Assembly: GCA_902786355.1 (NCBI GenBank)
Contig: CADABZ010000004.1
Coordinates: forward strand, 45,084 to 109,083
From: an uncultured Eubacteriales bacterium
Lineage (GTDB): Bacteria; Bacillota; Clostridia; Peptostreptococcales; Anaerovoracaceae
Direction: 5' to 3'
DNA: 64,000 nt
Shown here piece by piece: positions 4,959 to 30,799 of this stretch. The notes under the pieces are model-generated. The model was given only the letters and a program-made list of their open reading frames with translations. It was not told where the DNA came from and made no database searches. The position numbers and the translations under genes were made by a program. Each line of letters opens with the position of its first letter. Within the stretch, counting starts at the first letter, position 1.

Positions 4959-6236
4959 ATGATCAGAAATATAATTTTCGATATAGGAAGAGTGCTTATC
5001 GACTTCGAGTGGCAGGAATATATGAAGTCATTATTCGATGCAGAGACTGCCAGAACAGTCACCGCAGCTATGTGGGGCAAGGGGTACTGGAGCGAGCTCG
5101 ACATCGCTCTGCTTTCGGATGATGAGATCCTTGAGCTCTTCTACAGCGAGGCTCCGGAGTATAAGAAGGAGATAAGAGAAGCTTTCGACCGCGTAGGCGA
5201 ATGCGTGAAGAGGAGGGACTGGGCTATACCTCTGATCGACAGCCTTAAGGAAAAGGGCTACAGAGTGCTGTATCTGTCCAATTTCTCTGAGCATGTTATG
5301 GGATCCAACCCTGAGGCCCTTGATTTTCTCAGCCACATGGACGGAGGAGTGTTCTCATGTGATGTCAACATCATCAAGCCATCATCCGGGATATATGCTG
5401 AGCTGATCAGAAAATATGACCTGATTCCGGAGGAATGCCTGTTCATCGATGACCACGGAAACAATATTGCGGCTGCCAGAAAATTCGGCATCAAGGGGAT
5501 CCGCTTCGACAGCAGAGAGCAGCTTGAGGCAGATCTTACCAAGGCCCTCGACAAAGACCGCGGGCACGAGAGGATCACAGTGCTCTGCTACGGTGACTCC
5601 AATACATACGGATATGACCCTCAGACTCTGGGAAGATATCCTTATGAGAAGCGCTGGACGACTATACTGGCCGGGATGCTGGGAGACAGATATGAAGTCA
5701 TTGCCGAAGGACTCAACGGCAGGACGACTGCATTTGACAGAAAGGACGCACCGTGGAAGAACGGACTTGCCAGCATAATTCCCTGCCTTGGAACTCACAA
5801 GCCTGTAGACATCCTTGTTATCATGCTGGGGACCAATGACTGCAATACAGAGCTCGGAGTTAGGGCTGAAGATATCGCAGAAGGCATGGCGAAGCTGACA
5901 GAGCTCGCCGAAAAAGCATCTCCGGGGCTTCAGGGATATATTCCTGAGATCATTATCACTGCACCGGTGGCTATACCGGAGGATTTCAGCATGTCGCCTT
6001 TCGTGGATCAGCTGGACAGCGGATCTGCTCAGAAGTCCCGGGATATAGCACCGCTGTATGCCCGGATCGCTGCAGCTCATCATCTGAAGTTCGTCAATGC
6101 GAGCGAAGATGCAGAAGTTTCTGACGACTGCGAACACCTGACAGCCAGGGGGCATGAGCAGCTTGCGAAGCTCATATATGATGAGATCACCAGAGACCCT
6201 GCATCCTACGATATGTCAGAGAAGCTTGTTCCGTAA
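4959..6236 (+). CDS. Fusion of a HAD-family phosphatase and an SGNH hydrolase
   Basis: 425 residues. ATG 4959 is preferred over ATG 4950 because GGAG at 4946-4949 sits 9 bp before it. Residues 1-197 are a HAD hydrolase: nucleophile region IIFDIGRVL (Asp8), LSN at 106-108, Lys140 and the Asp164-Asp165 pair. As in YihX-like members the second Asp of DxD is a Gly. Residues 205-410 are an SGNH esterase/acyl-hydrolase: GDSN with Ser214, Asn in GTND (291-294) and the DCEH pair Asp390/His393. Both active sites look intact, so one polypeptide may remove phosphate and acyl groups from related substrates. A possible internal GTG start at 5580, with GAGAGGA upstream, could make the SGNH part alone. A terminator follows. 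Confidence 0.8.
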   Translation: MIRNIIFDIGRVLIDFEWQEYMKSLFDAETARTVTAAMWGKGYWSELDIALLSDDEILELFYSEAPEYKKEIREAFDRVGECVKRRDWAIPLIDSLKEKGYRVLYLSNFSEHVMGSNPEALDFLSHMDGGVFSCDVNIIKPSSGIYAELIRKYDLIPEECLFIDDHGNNIAAARKFGIKGIRFDSREQLEADLTKALDKDRGHERITVLCYGDSNTYGYDPQTLGRYPYEKRWTTILAGMLGDRYEVIAEGLNGRTTAFDRKDAPWKNGLASIIPCLGTHKPVDILVIMLGTNDCNTELGVRAEDIAEGMAKLTELAEKASPGLQGYIPEIIITAPVAIPEDFSMSPFVDQLDSGSAQKSRDIAPLYARIAAAHHLKFVNASEDAEVSDDCEHLTARGHEQLAKLIYDEITRDPASYDMSEKLVP

Positions 6237-24282: not shown

Positions 24283-24312
24283 TAACAGAAATAACAGAAA
24301 GGGGTTATGGAA

Positions 24313-25350
24313 ATGAAAAAGTATAATGTAGGTGTAATGGGTGCTACCGGTGCTGTAGGACAGCAGATGATCAAGGTCCTCGCAGAGAGAGACTTCCCTG
24401 TAGGCGAGCTCAGACTTCTCGCAAGTGAGAGATCAGAGGGAAAGACTATCTCCACACCATTCGGAGACATCGTTGTAAAGAGAACATGCGAGACTGCATT
24501 TGACGGACTCGACATCGTGCTCGGAGCAAGCGAGAATGACATCGCTGAGGCAATGGCTCCTCACATCAAGGCAGCAGGCGCTGTATTCGTAGACAACTCA
24601 TCCGCATTCAGACTTTGCGATGATGTTCCTCTGGTAGTTCCTGAGATCAACCCTGAGGATGTCAAGTGGAATAAGGGTATCATCAGCAATCCTAACTGCA
24701 CTACCATCATCTCACTCGTTGCGATCAACGCTATCAACAAGCTGTCGAAGATCAAGGGCATCTATGCTTCCTCATATCAGGCTACAAGCGGTGCAGGAGC
24801 TGCAGGCCCTATAGAGATGTATGAGCAGTCCGAGAAGGTCCTGGCTGCAAGAGCTGCAGGCGGCACCGGCAATTCATACGGCGCTGAGATCGAGCCGAAG
24901 GTATTCCAATACCAGATCGCATACAACGTAATTCCTCAGATCGGCGGATTCGGTGAGAACCTGTATTCATCAGAAGAAATGAAGCTGCAGAACGAAGGCC
25001 GCAAGATCATGCATCTGCCTGAACTCAAGGTATCCTGCACATGCGTAAGAGTACCTGTTGAGAGATCACATGCAGTATCCATCGTAGCTATCACTGAAGA
25101 TAAGCTCGACCTCGATGATGTAAGAGAAGCGATCGCCAATGCTCCTGGTGCAAGACTCTATGATGAGCCTTCCGAAAAGATCTATCCGATGCCTCTGCTC
25201 ACATCCAACCAGGATATCGTATATGTAGGCAGGATCAGAAGAGACCTCGTCAATGAGAATGGCATCAACGTATGGTGCTGCGGAGACCAGGTAAGAAAGG
25301 GCGCTGCTACCAACGCAGTACAGATCGCAGAGCTGCTGATCGAAAAATAA
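24313..25350 (+). CDS. asd: Aspartate-semialdehyde dehydrogenase
   Basis: 345 residues. ATG 24313 is preferred over 24307 because GAAAGGGG lies 9 bp upstream. The Rossmann motif is VGVMGATGAVGQQM, the catalytic Cys is in SNPNCTTI near residue 130, and the ATSGAGAAG loop binds phosphate. It reduces aspartyl-4-phosphate with NADPH to aspartate semialdehyde. It forms an operon with the aspartokinase upstream and ends at a strong terminator. C-terminal residues up to AVQIAELL match the common length. Confidence 0.95.
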   Translation: MKKYNVGVMGATGAVGQQMIKVLAERDFPVGELRLLASERSEGKTISTPFGDIVVKRTCETAFDGLDIVLGASENDIAEAMAPHIKAAGAVFVDNSSAFRLCDDVPLVVPEINPEDVKWNKGIISNPNCTTIISLVAINAINKLSKIKGIYASSYQATSGAGAAGPIEMYEQSEKVLAARAAGGTGNSYGAEIEPKVFQYQIAYNVIPQIGGFGENLYSSEEMKLQNEGRKIMHLPELKVSCTCVRVPVERSHAVSIVAITEDKLDLDDVREAIANAPGARLYDEPSEKIYPMPLLTSNQDIVYVGRIRRDLVNENGINVWCCGDQVRKGAATNAVQIAELLIEK

Positions 25351-25401
25351 GATCACACATACCGTCTGAGAACGGGGATTGTATTAATAGAGAAACAAAG
25401 A

Positions 25402-25444
25402 AATACATAACGCTTAACGTCCGGTTAGCGTTATGTATTCTTTT
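25402..25444 (+). terminator. Terminator of the aspartokinase-asd operon
   Basis: A perfect 13-bp stem AATACATAACGCT / AGCGTTATGTATT with a 12-base loop is followed by CTTTT. It isolates the following RNA gene from read-through. Confidence 0.85.
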
Positions 25445-25459
25445 AGAACAAAAAATCTC

Positions 25460-25488
25460 TTGATTTTTTGTATTGAACGCACTAAAAT
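25460..25488 (+). promoter_or_regulatory. Promoter of the candidate large RNA
   Basis: TTGATT and TAAAAT are separated by exactly 17 bp, directly after the asd terminator and with no protein start codon downstream. The expected transcription start is near 25495. Confidence 0.7.
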
Positions 25489-25494
25489 CAGTAC

Positions 25495-26160
25495 AACAAC
25501 AAGAGATAATAACAAGCCGACAGACAAGTACTTACAGATCAGATGTCAACGTAAGATAAGGCTACGCAGAGGACATCAAAGTAGCGGGTATCGTAGAAGT
25601 GATTACGAAGCCGCAGAAGATCACAGGTACACCACAGTGCAAACCACATGGAGAGAGAGTAGTCAGCAGAAGAAAGAGCGGTGAAGAAGTACTCAGTGGA
25701 AGAAGTACCGGGGATACGGTGAGGCAAGGCAGGGATGCAGAGCTTACACAGAACGGCTAACCGGGAAGAAGTACATAGGGGAAAAAGTAACTGCAGAGAA
25801 AAGTATGCAGACGAAGGAAAGACCTTGATGGGAGCGTGGCAGTCAGAAGTGATCAGCACAGACTTAAGTAAGCACAGATACTCGTAGAGGAGAGAAAAGT
25901 CGGCGACGAGAAAGCGCTGGGCGCGGAACAGGAGGAACGGACCGATGGGATATTCAAATAGAGAGGTTGATCCGGCATAGACTCGCTGTAAAGGAAGCCT
26001 GCTTACAGGCATCAGATATGTGAAAAGAGACTGAAAGATCAGACAAACAGACCGGTTGCCGAGTATCAACAGAAGATAATAAGATTGACACTCACAACTG
26101 AATAACATGATATATGATATAAGTAGAAAGTAACGCCCCGCACAGGATGCGGGGTTTTCT
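25495..26160 (+). ncRNA. Candidate large structured non-coding RNA (about 660 nt)
   Basis: The only long stretch of the window without a protein gene. It has its own promoter upstream and a strong terminator at its end. Open frames here are short or, on the minus strand, have an unnatural Cys/Ser/Leu/Tyr composition and no ribosome site. The plus strand is purine-rich and packed with small hairpins: CTTAC/GTAAG (25531/25551), GCTAC/GTAGC (25561/25581), CGTA/TACG (25592/25604), GTACT/AGTAC (25689/25704), ACCG/CGGT (25707/25717), CTGCA/TGCAG (25791/25806), CTCGT/ACGAG (25881/25906), GCGC/GCGC (25914/25921) and GCCTG/CAGGC (25997/26006), linked by repeated GAAG and AGAAG. Length and style fit ornate large RNAs such as ROOL, OLE or GOLLD. 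It does not look like RNase P, tmRNA, SRP or 6S RNA. Class unassigned. Confidence 0.7.
26136..26160 (+). terminator. Terminator of the candidate large RNA
   Basis: A 7-bp GC stem CCCCGCA / TGCGGGG with a 5-base loop is followed by TTTTCT. Confidence 0.85.
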
Positions 26161-26236
26161 ATTGTGTTCTGTGATACAATGATATCAACCCGGTGCTGTG
26201 ATTCCGGGTGCAGACAACAGACGGACGGAGGTTCAT

Positions 26237-27058
26237 ATGGACGGAAATCTAAGAGCGATGATACGCGAGGCTGCGGATTATCTGCGCAGTAACGGAGTTA
26301 CAGAACCGGATACAGGAGTAATACTCGGAACAGGACTCAACGGATATTCAGACCGCATAGAAGATCCGGTCGTGATCCCGTATGCTGAGATCCCGCACAT
26401 GAGTCCCGGAAAGGTCGAAGGCCACCGTGGCCAGCTCATATATGGGAGACACAAGGGAAAGAAAGTGGTCATTCTCGCAGGAAGGTACCATTACTATGAG
26501 TCCGGAGATATCGTGCTGACATCATTTCCGGCGAGAGTTCTTGTCGAGCTCGGGATAAAGCGCCTTATCATCACCAATGCTTCCGGCTGCGTCAATGAGA
26601 GCTGGAAAGCAGGCCAGCTGATGCTCATAAGCGACCACATCAATCTCACGGGCCAAAATCCACTGATCGGAGCCAATCTCGACGAGTACGGTCCGAGATT
26701 TCCGGATATGACATATACCTACGATCCGGAGCTAAGATCAAAGATAAGAAAAAAAGCCTCCGAAGCAGGTATAGAGCTTACTGAAGGCGTATACACTATG
26801 ATGACCGGACCGTCTTTTGAGACTCCTGCGGAGATCAGGATGGTCAGGATAATAGGCGGAGATGCCGTCGGTATGTCCAGCGTTCCGGAAGCTATAATCG
26901 CTTCTCATTCCGGACTCGAGGTCGTCGGGATCTCGCTCCTTACGAATATGGCTGCCGGAGTTCTCGATCAGCCGCTCACTGCCGAAGAGGTCACCGAAGC
27001 CGGCAGGAAGGCAGAAGCTGAATTCAGCCGGGTCATGGATATAGCCATAGAGATCTGA
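26237..27058 (+). CDS. punA: Purine nucleoside phosphorylase (trimeric type)
   Basis: 273 residues. ATG 26237 has GGAGG 9 bp upstream; the longer frame is unsupported. The phosphate-binding VILGTGLNG near residue 25, HRGQLIYG, AGRYHYYESGD, the base-binding TNASGCVN and MMTGPSFETPAEIRM with GMSSVPE identify the PNP-I family of trimeric enzymes acting on guanosine and inosine. It splits purine nucleosides with phosphate for salvage. An extended -10 promoter (TGATACAAT, 26172-26180) lies about 55 bp upstream, just after the RNA gene terminator. The gene converges on the nuclease-ATPase gene with only 20 bp between. Confidence 0.92.
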   Translation: MDGNLRAMIREAADYLRSNGVTEPDTGVILGTGLNGYSDRIEDPVVIPYAEIPHMSPGKVEGHRGQLIYGRHKGKKVVILAGRYHYYESGDIVLTSFPARVLVELGIKRLIITNASGCVNESWKAGQLMLISDHINLTGQNPLIGANLDEYGPRFPDMTYTYDPELRSKIRKKASEAGIELTEGVYTMMTGPSFETPAEIRMVRIIGGDAVGMSSVPEAIIASHSGLEVVGISLLTNMAAGVLDQPLTAEEVTEAGRKAEAEFSRVMDIAIEI

Positions 27059-30701: not shown

Positions 30702-30799
30702 GGGGGTAGATAGGTGCTGGTGTGCCTCGCGGTCTTCAAAACCGTTTGCAGGGGGTTAGTAGCCTCCCGGGTGGGTTCGATTCCCACATACTCCCGCCA
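30702..30799 (+). tRNA. selC: tRNA-Sec, anticodon UCA
   Basis: A 98-nt cloverleaf with CCA encoded. The 8-base acceptor arm GGGGGTAG pairs with ATACTCCC (one G-U, last pair G-A), followed by discriminator G and CCA. The D stem has 6 bp (AGGTGC/GTGCCT), the anticodon loop CTTCAAA holds TCA at 30736-30738, the long variable arm is GGGGG...CCTCC, and the T arm is GTGGG TTCGATT CCCAC. The long acceptor-T stack, 6-bp D stem and UCA anticodon identify selenocysteine tRNA. It lies 77 bp before selA. Confidence 0.95.

Follow-up and report, generated by a model that had tools for sequence, protein, structure and literature searches.

The locus between asd and punA of an uncultured member of the Clostridia raises the question of what is encoded by a T-poor segment of about 667 nt. 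Within the window, i.e. the whole stretch of 64,000 nucleotides that we analysed, asd occupies 24307-25350 and punA lies to the right (AUG at 26237; frame listed as 26198-27058 from a GTG). The first-pass annotation had proposed a large structured non-coding RNA with its own promoter and terminator, sealed off by the asd terminator and by punA. These boundaries were recovered: a hairpin at 25397-25444 of the plus strand, with arms of 23 nt that are 83% complementary, is followed by a short T run and is probably the terminator of asd. All further RNA features given here lie on the plus strand. The annotated sigma-70-type promoter, TTGATT and TAAAAT at a spacing of 17, is present at 25460-25488, and the same layout recurs 5' of homologues. 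The annotated intrinsic terminator is likewise present (26135-26162, hairpin 26135-26155) and is preceded by a conserved ACAACUGAAUAA at 26094-26105, which was seen in homologues by eye. From these signals we infer a gene for a long-form RNA of about 667 nt (25496-26162), whose transcription, start and end are thus predicted from sequence. Within the 1 kb scanned, three promoter-like and three terminator-like sites were found compared to 1.4 and 0.8 in shuffled sequences, so that the two signals of the window are weak when taken alone. Across 36 complete copies of the RNA, a -10-like site precedes every one (in G066 it was mis-assigned by the scan, TACAAT being visible there), and a terminator was found in 33 and seen by eye in the remaining three.

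The largest open frame of the segment encodes 189 aa on the minus strand (25539-26108). Neither this frame nor three plus-strand frames matched Pfam above cut-off, the one weak match having an E-value of 0.057. In G010, the protein identity of the 189-aa frame is 62.8% at a DNA identity of 87%, and its match in G007 is broken over two frames. Its being open is probably a result of the low T content of the RNA strand. We therefore reject a protein-coding reading of the segment, given the lack of Pfam matches and the poor conservation of the frame in relatives, in agreement with the earlier statement that no credible protein frame is present.

The annotation had also been unable to assign the RNA to ROOL, OLE or GOLLD, and our comparison with known families leads to the same result with HEARO included. 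No Rfam 15 family reached the gathering threshold over the window RNA or in ten homologue loci. ROOL, GOLLD, OLE and HEARO gave no match in the region at the gathering or a permissive threshold (E <= 10 for ROOL), none in the ten homologue loci at gathering and none in seven loci at E <= 0.5. Sub-threshold matches comprised rli22 (E 0.0036, covering the asd hairpin plus the promoter), Trp_leader (0.093), L20_leader (0.092) and five weaker ones. ROOL was rejected by context, too: it is encoded in phages or prophages, often close to tRNA islands, and the window copy lies between asd and punA and has no phage match. tmRNA (RF00023) and 6S RNA (RF00013) do not match the region; the genome carries its own tmRNA on contig C11 (G000, 189.7 bits) and its own 6S RNA on contig C1 (G000, 49.2 bits). 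A search of the window genome for RNase P type B gave no match. A CsrB-type sponge of CsrA was discarded with PF02599 occurring in 0 of 47 genomes of the genus, and a leader-peptide attenuator with no consistent downstream gene on the same strand in the 36 copies. A published survey (PMC8040213) reportedly lists thousands of candidate RNAs. Among the openly accessible papers listed by our literature searches, we found no description of this RNA.

Homologues were found in related Clostridia. When the genomes of 59 relatives were searched at the DNA level, G010 and G007 gave copies close to full length, with 87% and 86% identity across the whole query, and others gave partial copies; the window genome, searched likewise, gave a single copy. 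Scanning a collection of 84,980 species with a pattern of the core yielded 93 stretches, 22 of which are homologues as judged by eye, while most others look like gene starts. The 17 pattern homologues with titles come from metagenome-assembled genomes named uncultured Clostridiales, Clostridiales or Mogibacterium sp., and six of these titles name sheep or goat gut. A covariance model of the core, R1, was built from 18 short-form copies, leaving out the clade of the window. The window scores 54.7 bits with this model (E 1e-13). Of the 47 genus genomes, 35 have strong matches to it (E <= 1.8e-8) and G035 has a weak one; 11 have no match at E 0.1, among them G005, which has a repeat form of the RNA. 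Of the 35 genomes, 33 have a single strong copy, and the others, G008 (L037, L174) and G070 (L182, L428), have two each. Outside the genus, weak matches occur in 15 of 393 genomes of the order at E <= 0.01, in four of 349 of the family at E <= 0.001 and in four of 391 of the class. Those in G169 and G328 are probably due to chance, being located within open frames that encode 295 and 399 aa; G106 counts as a relative by its anatomy. The pattern scan of viral contigs gave at least 120 loci, and rescanning 80 of them with R1 produced short weak matches (best E 0.0027). Neither the window RNA nor one short form matched the phage and plasmid collections searched.

Short members of the family measure about 250-390 nt and lack the long 5' part, the 5' domain ranging from 21 nt (G022, G026) up to about 446 nt; the lengths for G004, G006, G012, G014, G016 and G065 are about 45 nt too long since a second downstream hairpin was taken as the terminator. 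The long 5' part is a lineage extension and the conserved core lies 3' (25931-26073). A size of about 640 nt, which the annotation had treated as a signature of the class, does not hold up, as the core of the shortest members is preceded by only about 21 nt.

The core behaves as a conserved structure. Across the 36 complete copies (34 distinct rows), 92.2% of the cells of the 17 pairs in the model are paired, and 11 of these pairs change on both sides, six of these 11 among the ten pairs of stem P3. Double changes fill 40 cells compared to a mean of 10.0 in shuffles (0/500 shuffles), with slid controls at no more than 9; further pair types number 24 compared to 19.7 (4/500). Because the alignment had been fitted to the model, this comparison is biased in the model's favour. 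With just the 18 model sequences, no excess over shuffles was seen, so that the signal comes from the divergent copies. P3 joins a 5' strand at 25965-25977 to a 3' strand at 26057-26070 (UGCCG-AGU-AUCAAC), with 11 Watson-Crick pairs in the register of the window. The modelled pairs of hairpin P5, GCCUGCUUACAGGC at 25997-26010, form in 100% of cells and one of them changes on both sides. A small GCGC/GCGC hairpin 5' of the core (25914-25924) has one pair with a compensatory change. A brute-force pair scan revealed no further clear helix; a putative P4 (CUGY/RCAG) and putative H-type pseudoknots were read by eye. Folding of a short form (z -6.2, 0/100 shuffles) gave an end-to-end helix that joins the 5' end to the terminator tail. 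Overall, the modelled stems covary, and we are nearly certain, by sequence and covariation, that this is a real RNA family. The opposite reading, a functionless intergenic sequence that is degenerate or mobile, could draw on the changing orientation and locus of the RNA between species and on the 11 genus genomes without a match. Covariation argues strongly against it, as do the recurring promoter and terminator and the copy number of one, or in two genomes two, so that this reading can hardly be correct.

The family is not simply non-coding, because all complete copies bear a module of Shine-Dalgarno (SD) sequence, AUG, mini-ORF and stop; of the earlier designation as a non-coding RNA, the structured RNA gene stands and the word non-coding has to be revised. 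In the window, the conserved module GGAGGAACGGACCG, an SD sequence plus GACC, occupies 25931-25944 and leads into the mini-ORF MGYSNREVDPA with the stop UAG (25945-25980), the second half of which is the 5' strand of P3. The arrangement of SD, AUG and stop is complete in 36/36 copies, with 11 codons in 31 and 10 codons in five. Fifteen of these copies, and 15 of the 18 model sequences, had been found with a pattern that demands AUG, and 21 without it (11 by DNA search, 10 first by R1). The start of P3 lies 20 nt past the A of the AUG in the 11-codon class and 19 nt past it in the 10-codon class, and the stop begins 13 or 11 nt beyond the start of P3, just past its ten positions. Thus, in the five copies whose P3 is 1 nt nearer to the AUG, the stop lies in a new frame and is still just past P3. 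This 1-nt shift may reflect one or few events, and the two classes may be old paralogues, because G070 carries both. Could the RNA be a small mRNA for a functional peptide of 10-11 aa with structured untranslated regions? The complete SD-AUG-stop in 36/36 copies and a peptide start of MG in 35/36 would fit. However, 24 different peptides occur, those of the window and G015 differ in their N-terminal halves, the C-terminal halves change with P3 and the frame, and in relatives from other genera the frame at the module is 3, 6 or 10 codons long (partly by eye), which makes a functional peptide quite improbable. The frame seems to be kept rather than the peptide, given the 24 different peptide sequences; as far as these sequences tell, start, length and stop position look selected. 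We consider it likely that the mini-ORF is translated.

The strand shared by mini-ORF and P3 is predicted to have a second partner. P3 does not form in the minimum free energy (MFE) fold of the window, where forcing its 11 pairs costs 5.1 kcal/mol (from -157.4 to -152.3), and it is absent from the consensus fold of five long forms. Instead, the window MFE pairs its 5' strand with 25938-25946, over GACC and AUG, in a local hairpin (25938-25941/25971-25974 and 25943-25946/25966-25969) that is also found in the MFE of the long-form alignment. A P3-like long-range pairing appears in the core MFE of 27 of the 36 copies and is absent in nine. With the 3' half removed, pairing of the module with the 5' strand of P3 is predicted for 22 of the 24 distinct segments, and in 18 of the 24 no more than one base of the AUG stays unpaired. 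In stability, these local hairpins do not exceed those of shuffled sequences (mean z -0.42). The predicted folds suggest that P3 and the local hairpin are two exclusive states, or else that MFE prediction is unreliable here.

We propose that in the core a mini-ORF of 10-11 codons would be served by a ribosome entry module (GGAGG-N-GACC-N-AUG), and that the second half of this mini-ORF would choose between two exclusive partners. Pairing with the far 3' strand of P3 would leave the module free, whereas pairing with the module itself would form the local hairpin over GACC and often over the AUG. Since the stop directly follows the shared strand, either pairing would be opened by a ribosome that translates as far as the stop. 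Such a translation-engaged two-state RNA could report initiation capacity or tie it up, and its 5' domain, which varies from almost nothing through a short form to a long rod, would act as a scaffold. We put this mechanism, in which translation, switch and output are all inferred, forward as our favoured but tentative reading, at somewhat less than even confidence.

Relatives in which the module is repeated bear on this proposal. The RNAs of G106 and G179 (other genera) carry five modules each, that of G035 (same genus, at a contig end) six, and those of G005 and G454 one or two followed by another short frame. They lie at L166 520-1140 (G106), L348 870-1330 (G179), L171 2060-2611 (G035), L332 (G005, minus strand) and L351 (G454, minus strand), and very short frames such as MDR*, MIM*, MYR* and MGKFEG* were observed in them. 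The module thus appears to be a duplicable unit, being repeated up to six times. As judged by eye, only the first and the last module have a start codon in G106, G179 and G035. Because the inner modules lack one, the partner bound by the motif may not be an initiating ribosome, and retention of the motif without a start codon counts against translation as its only role. The repeat-module RNAs probably form a wider class, of which the single-module form, as a free-standing RNA family, was found only in one genus of gut Clostridia. That all of them make up an undescribed RNA class of repeatable ribosome-entry modules (GGAGG-GACC-N-AUG plus mini-ORF), each embedded in structured RNA, which would engage initiating ribosomes not for making a peptide and whose shared strand would switch between P3 and the start-site hairpin, is conceivable and in our view rather doubtful.

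A second lead comes from the magnesium transporter gene mgtE, which was found in 47/47 genomes (split over contigs in G001 and G034; with a second paralogue, 31% identical, in G028). In 17 of the 46 genus genomes scanned, its start region GGAGGACRGACCAATGG (L322, L323 and other mgtE loci) contains a 17-mer that is almost the same as the RNA module. The RNA could accordingly be a molecular decoy, in which the module copies the translation start of mgtE and titrates a shared factor, protein or small RNA, that controls this gene, the mini-ORF being a by-product of the copied start site. The 45 matches of the pattern RGAGGNNRGACCAAWGG in the 46 genus genomes do split, as counted by hand, between these RNAs (27, including the repeat forms of G005 and G035) and mgtE (18, in 17 genomes), and a single match in another genus (L319) is an MgtE-like gene as judged by sequence. 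GACCN precedes the start codon in 0/56 other GGAGG-led gene starts from 23 genus loci, a set in which orthologues repeat. Moreover, where the SD-AUG spacing of the RNA is 9, that of mgtE is also 9 in 8/8 such genomes of the tree and in G003; the tree covers 43 of 45 rows (G003 and G026 dropped), leaving out G001 and G034 with their split mgtE. On the other hand, this concordance amounts to about two changes on the tree, and mgtE has a spacing of 9 next to an RNA spacing of 8 in G015, G067, G008, G029 and G016. Shared control of RNA and mgtE is therefore a lead only, since the spacing agrees in most genomes but not in these five. The mgtE genes of the window clade have drifted from the motif, and those of G013 and G021 keep it though no single-module RNA is present. 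Outside the genus, 11 of 15 genomes have single matches at unrelated places, and a reversed control pattern matches in 11 genomes. We regard a decoy acting through such a hypothetical factor as unlikely.

The long 5' domain was the part that the annotation had described as at least nine local hairpins joined by GAAG/AGAAG linkers. The purine-rich motif is indeed enriched, but most of the domain is predicted to be a rod in which the motif forms internal loops rather than linkers. The window RNA folds better than 20/20 shuffles (z -3.7). Its 5' domain is closed by a stem of GCCGAC (25516-25521) with GUCGGC (25899-25904), for which GCCGGA/UCCGGC is the counterpart in many short forms as read by eye. 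The MFE fold turns the larger part of the domain into a rod of short helices with purine-rich internal loops between them (25637-25837), and the GAAGAAGUA stretches become internal loops of 9x9, 9x9, 9x11 and 10x10. Two GAAGAAGUA strands (25683-25691, 25699-25707) form one side of the two 9x9 loops, opposite GAAGAAGUA and GAAAAAGUA (25765-25789). The GAAGAAGUA/GAAGAAGUA loops have AGUA/GAA on each side and GA/GA between, which we take to be possibly two bulged-G (loop E) motifs around tandem sheared pairs. The motif occurs five times in the window compared to 0.33 expected (0/500 shuffles), and the enrichment reaches 0/500 in eight of ten long forms (21/500 in G007, 145/500 in G070). In five long forms, 20 of 113 predicted pairs show compensatory changes, 14 of them in the rod; the five sequences amount in effect to two groups and the covariation term of their alignment is unfavourable (+2.4). 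A possible second initiation module, AAGGAAAGACCUUG-AUG, was read by eye at 25814-25887, with a frame of 19 codons in the window and nine in G007 and G010. Also by eye, the extension of G070 (L182, 5' of 4075) consists of repeated GGAAGCG and CGUAU-type hairpins without GAAGAAGUA loops, and L175, L176, L177 and L183, from four species, have a common extra 3' domain GGACCACCGUCCUGUUGC...AACAGGGU. Long rods with repeated purine loops and the pseudoknot-like elements would suit an architectural RNA or ribonucleoprotein scaffold with a role like that of ROOL, GOLLD or OLE, the SD-like module serving as an untranslated contact for protein or RNA. Modules repeated without AUG agree with such a contact, and a conserved 3' part beside a variable 5' part resembles what has been described for GOLLD. 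Yet this reading leaves the 36/36 AUGs with in-frame stops at a fixed place unexplained, and the shortest members have almost no 5' domain; a purely architectural role thus seems improbable.

The gene context, counted by hand in the 36 copies, is mixed: 19 copies lie tail to tail with asd directly and three more with one gene between, five are downstream of asd on the same strand (including the window copy), and nine lie beside other genes or near contig ends. There is therefore no consistent target in cis. The tRNA nearest to the window copy is a single selenocysteine tRNA 4.5 kb away (30702-30795), directly 5' of an ORF that looks like selA, so that the organism may make selenoproteins. Among ten homologue loci scanned, two non-window copies have one tRNA each within 3 kb; at L037, a tRNA (6075-6147) lies about 0.7 kb from one RNA copy of G008.

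To our knowledge, few large bacterial RNAs of unknown function have been recognized. The compact core described here ties frame, stop and covarying stem together and thereby opens the mechanism to direct test, and the natural short members of about 250 nt ease structural work. If the proposed engagement with translation is true, the regulation of ribosome use would be a role to consider for stand-alone RNAs.

ROOL and GOLLD are likewise large structured bacterial RNAs of similar size; in contrast to them, the window RNA has neither an Rfam match nor a phage or plasmid match and carries a mini-ORF. OLE RNA, of about 600 nt, occurs in Firmicutes, so that size and host are similar, but cmscan gave no OLE match for the window RNA. 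The dual-function small RNAs RNAIII, SgrS and SR1 are stand-alone transcripts with their own promoter and terminator and a short frame, and the window RNA has sequence signals for such an arrangement. Here, however, the frame has just 10-11 codons, the peptide is unconserved and the stop is fixed beside a covarying stem. In leader-peptide attenuators, translation of a short frame competes with alternative stems, as it would in the proposed mechanism, whereas our RNAs have no consistent downstream gene, 22 of 36 copies being tail to tail with asd, three of these with a gene between. Lambda bar is a two-codon minigene. The mg2 minigene of axe-txe acts in cis on txe (PMC8708949). Both resemble, as read by eye, the SD sequence and very short frames of the repeat-module relatives (MDR*, MIM*, MYR*), but the frame of the present family is set in a structured RNA.
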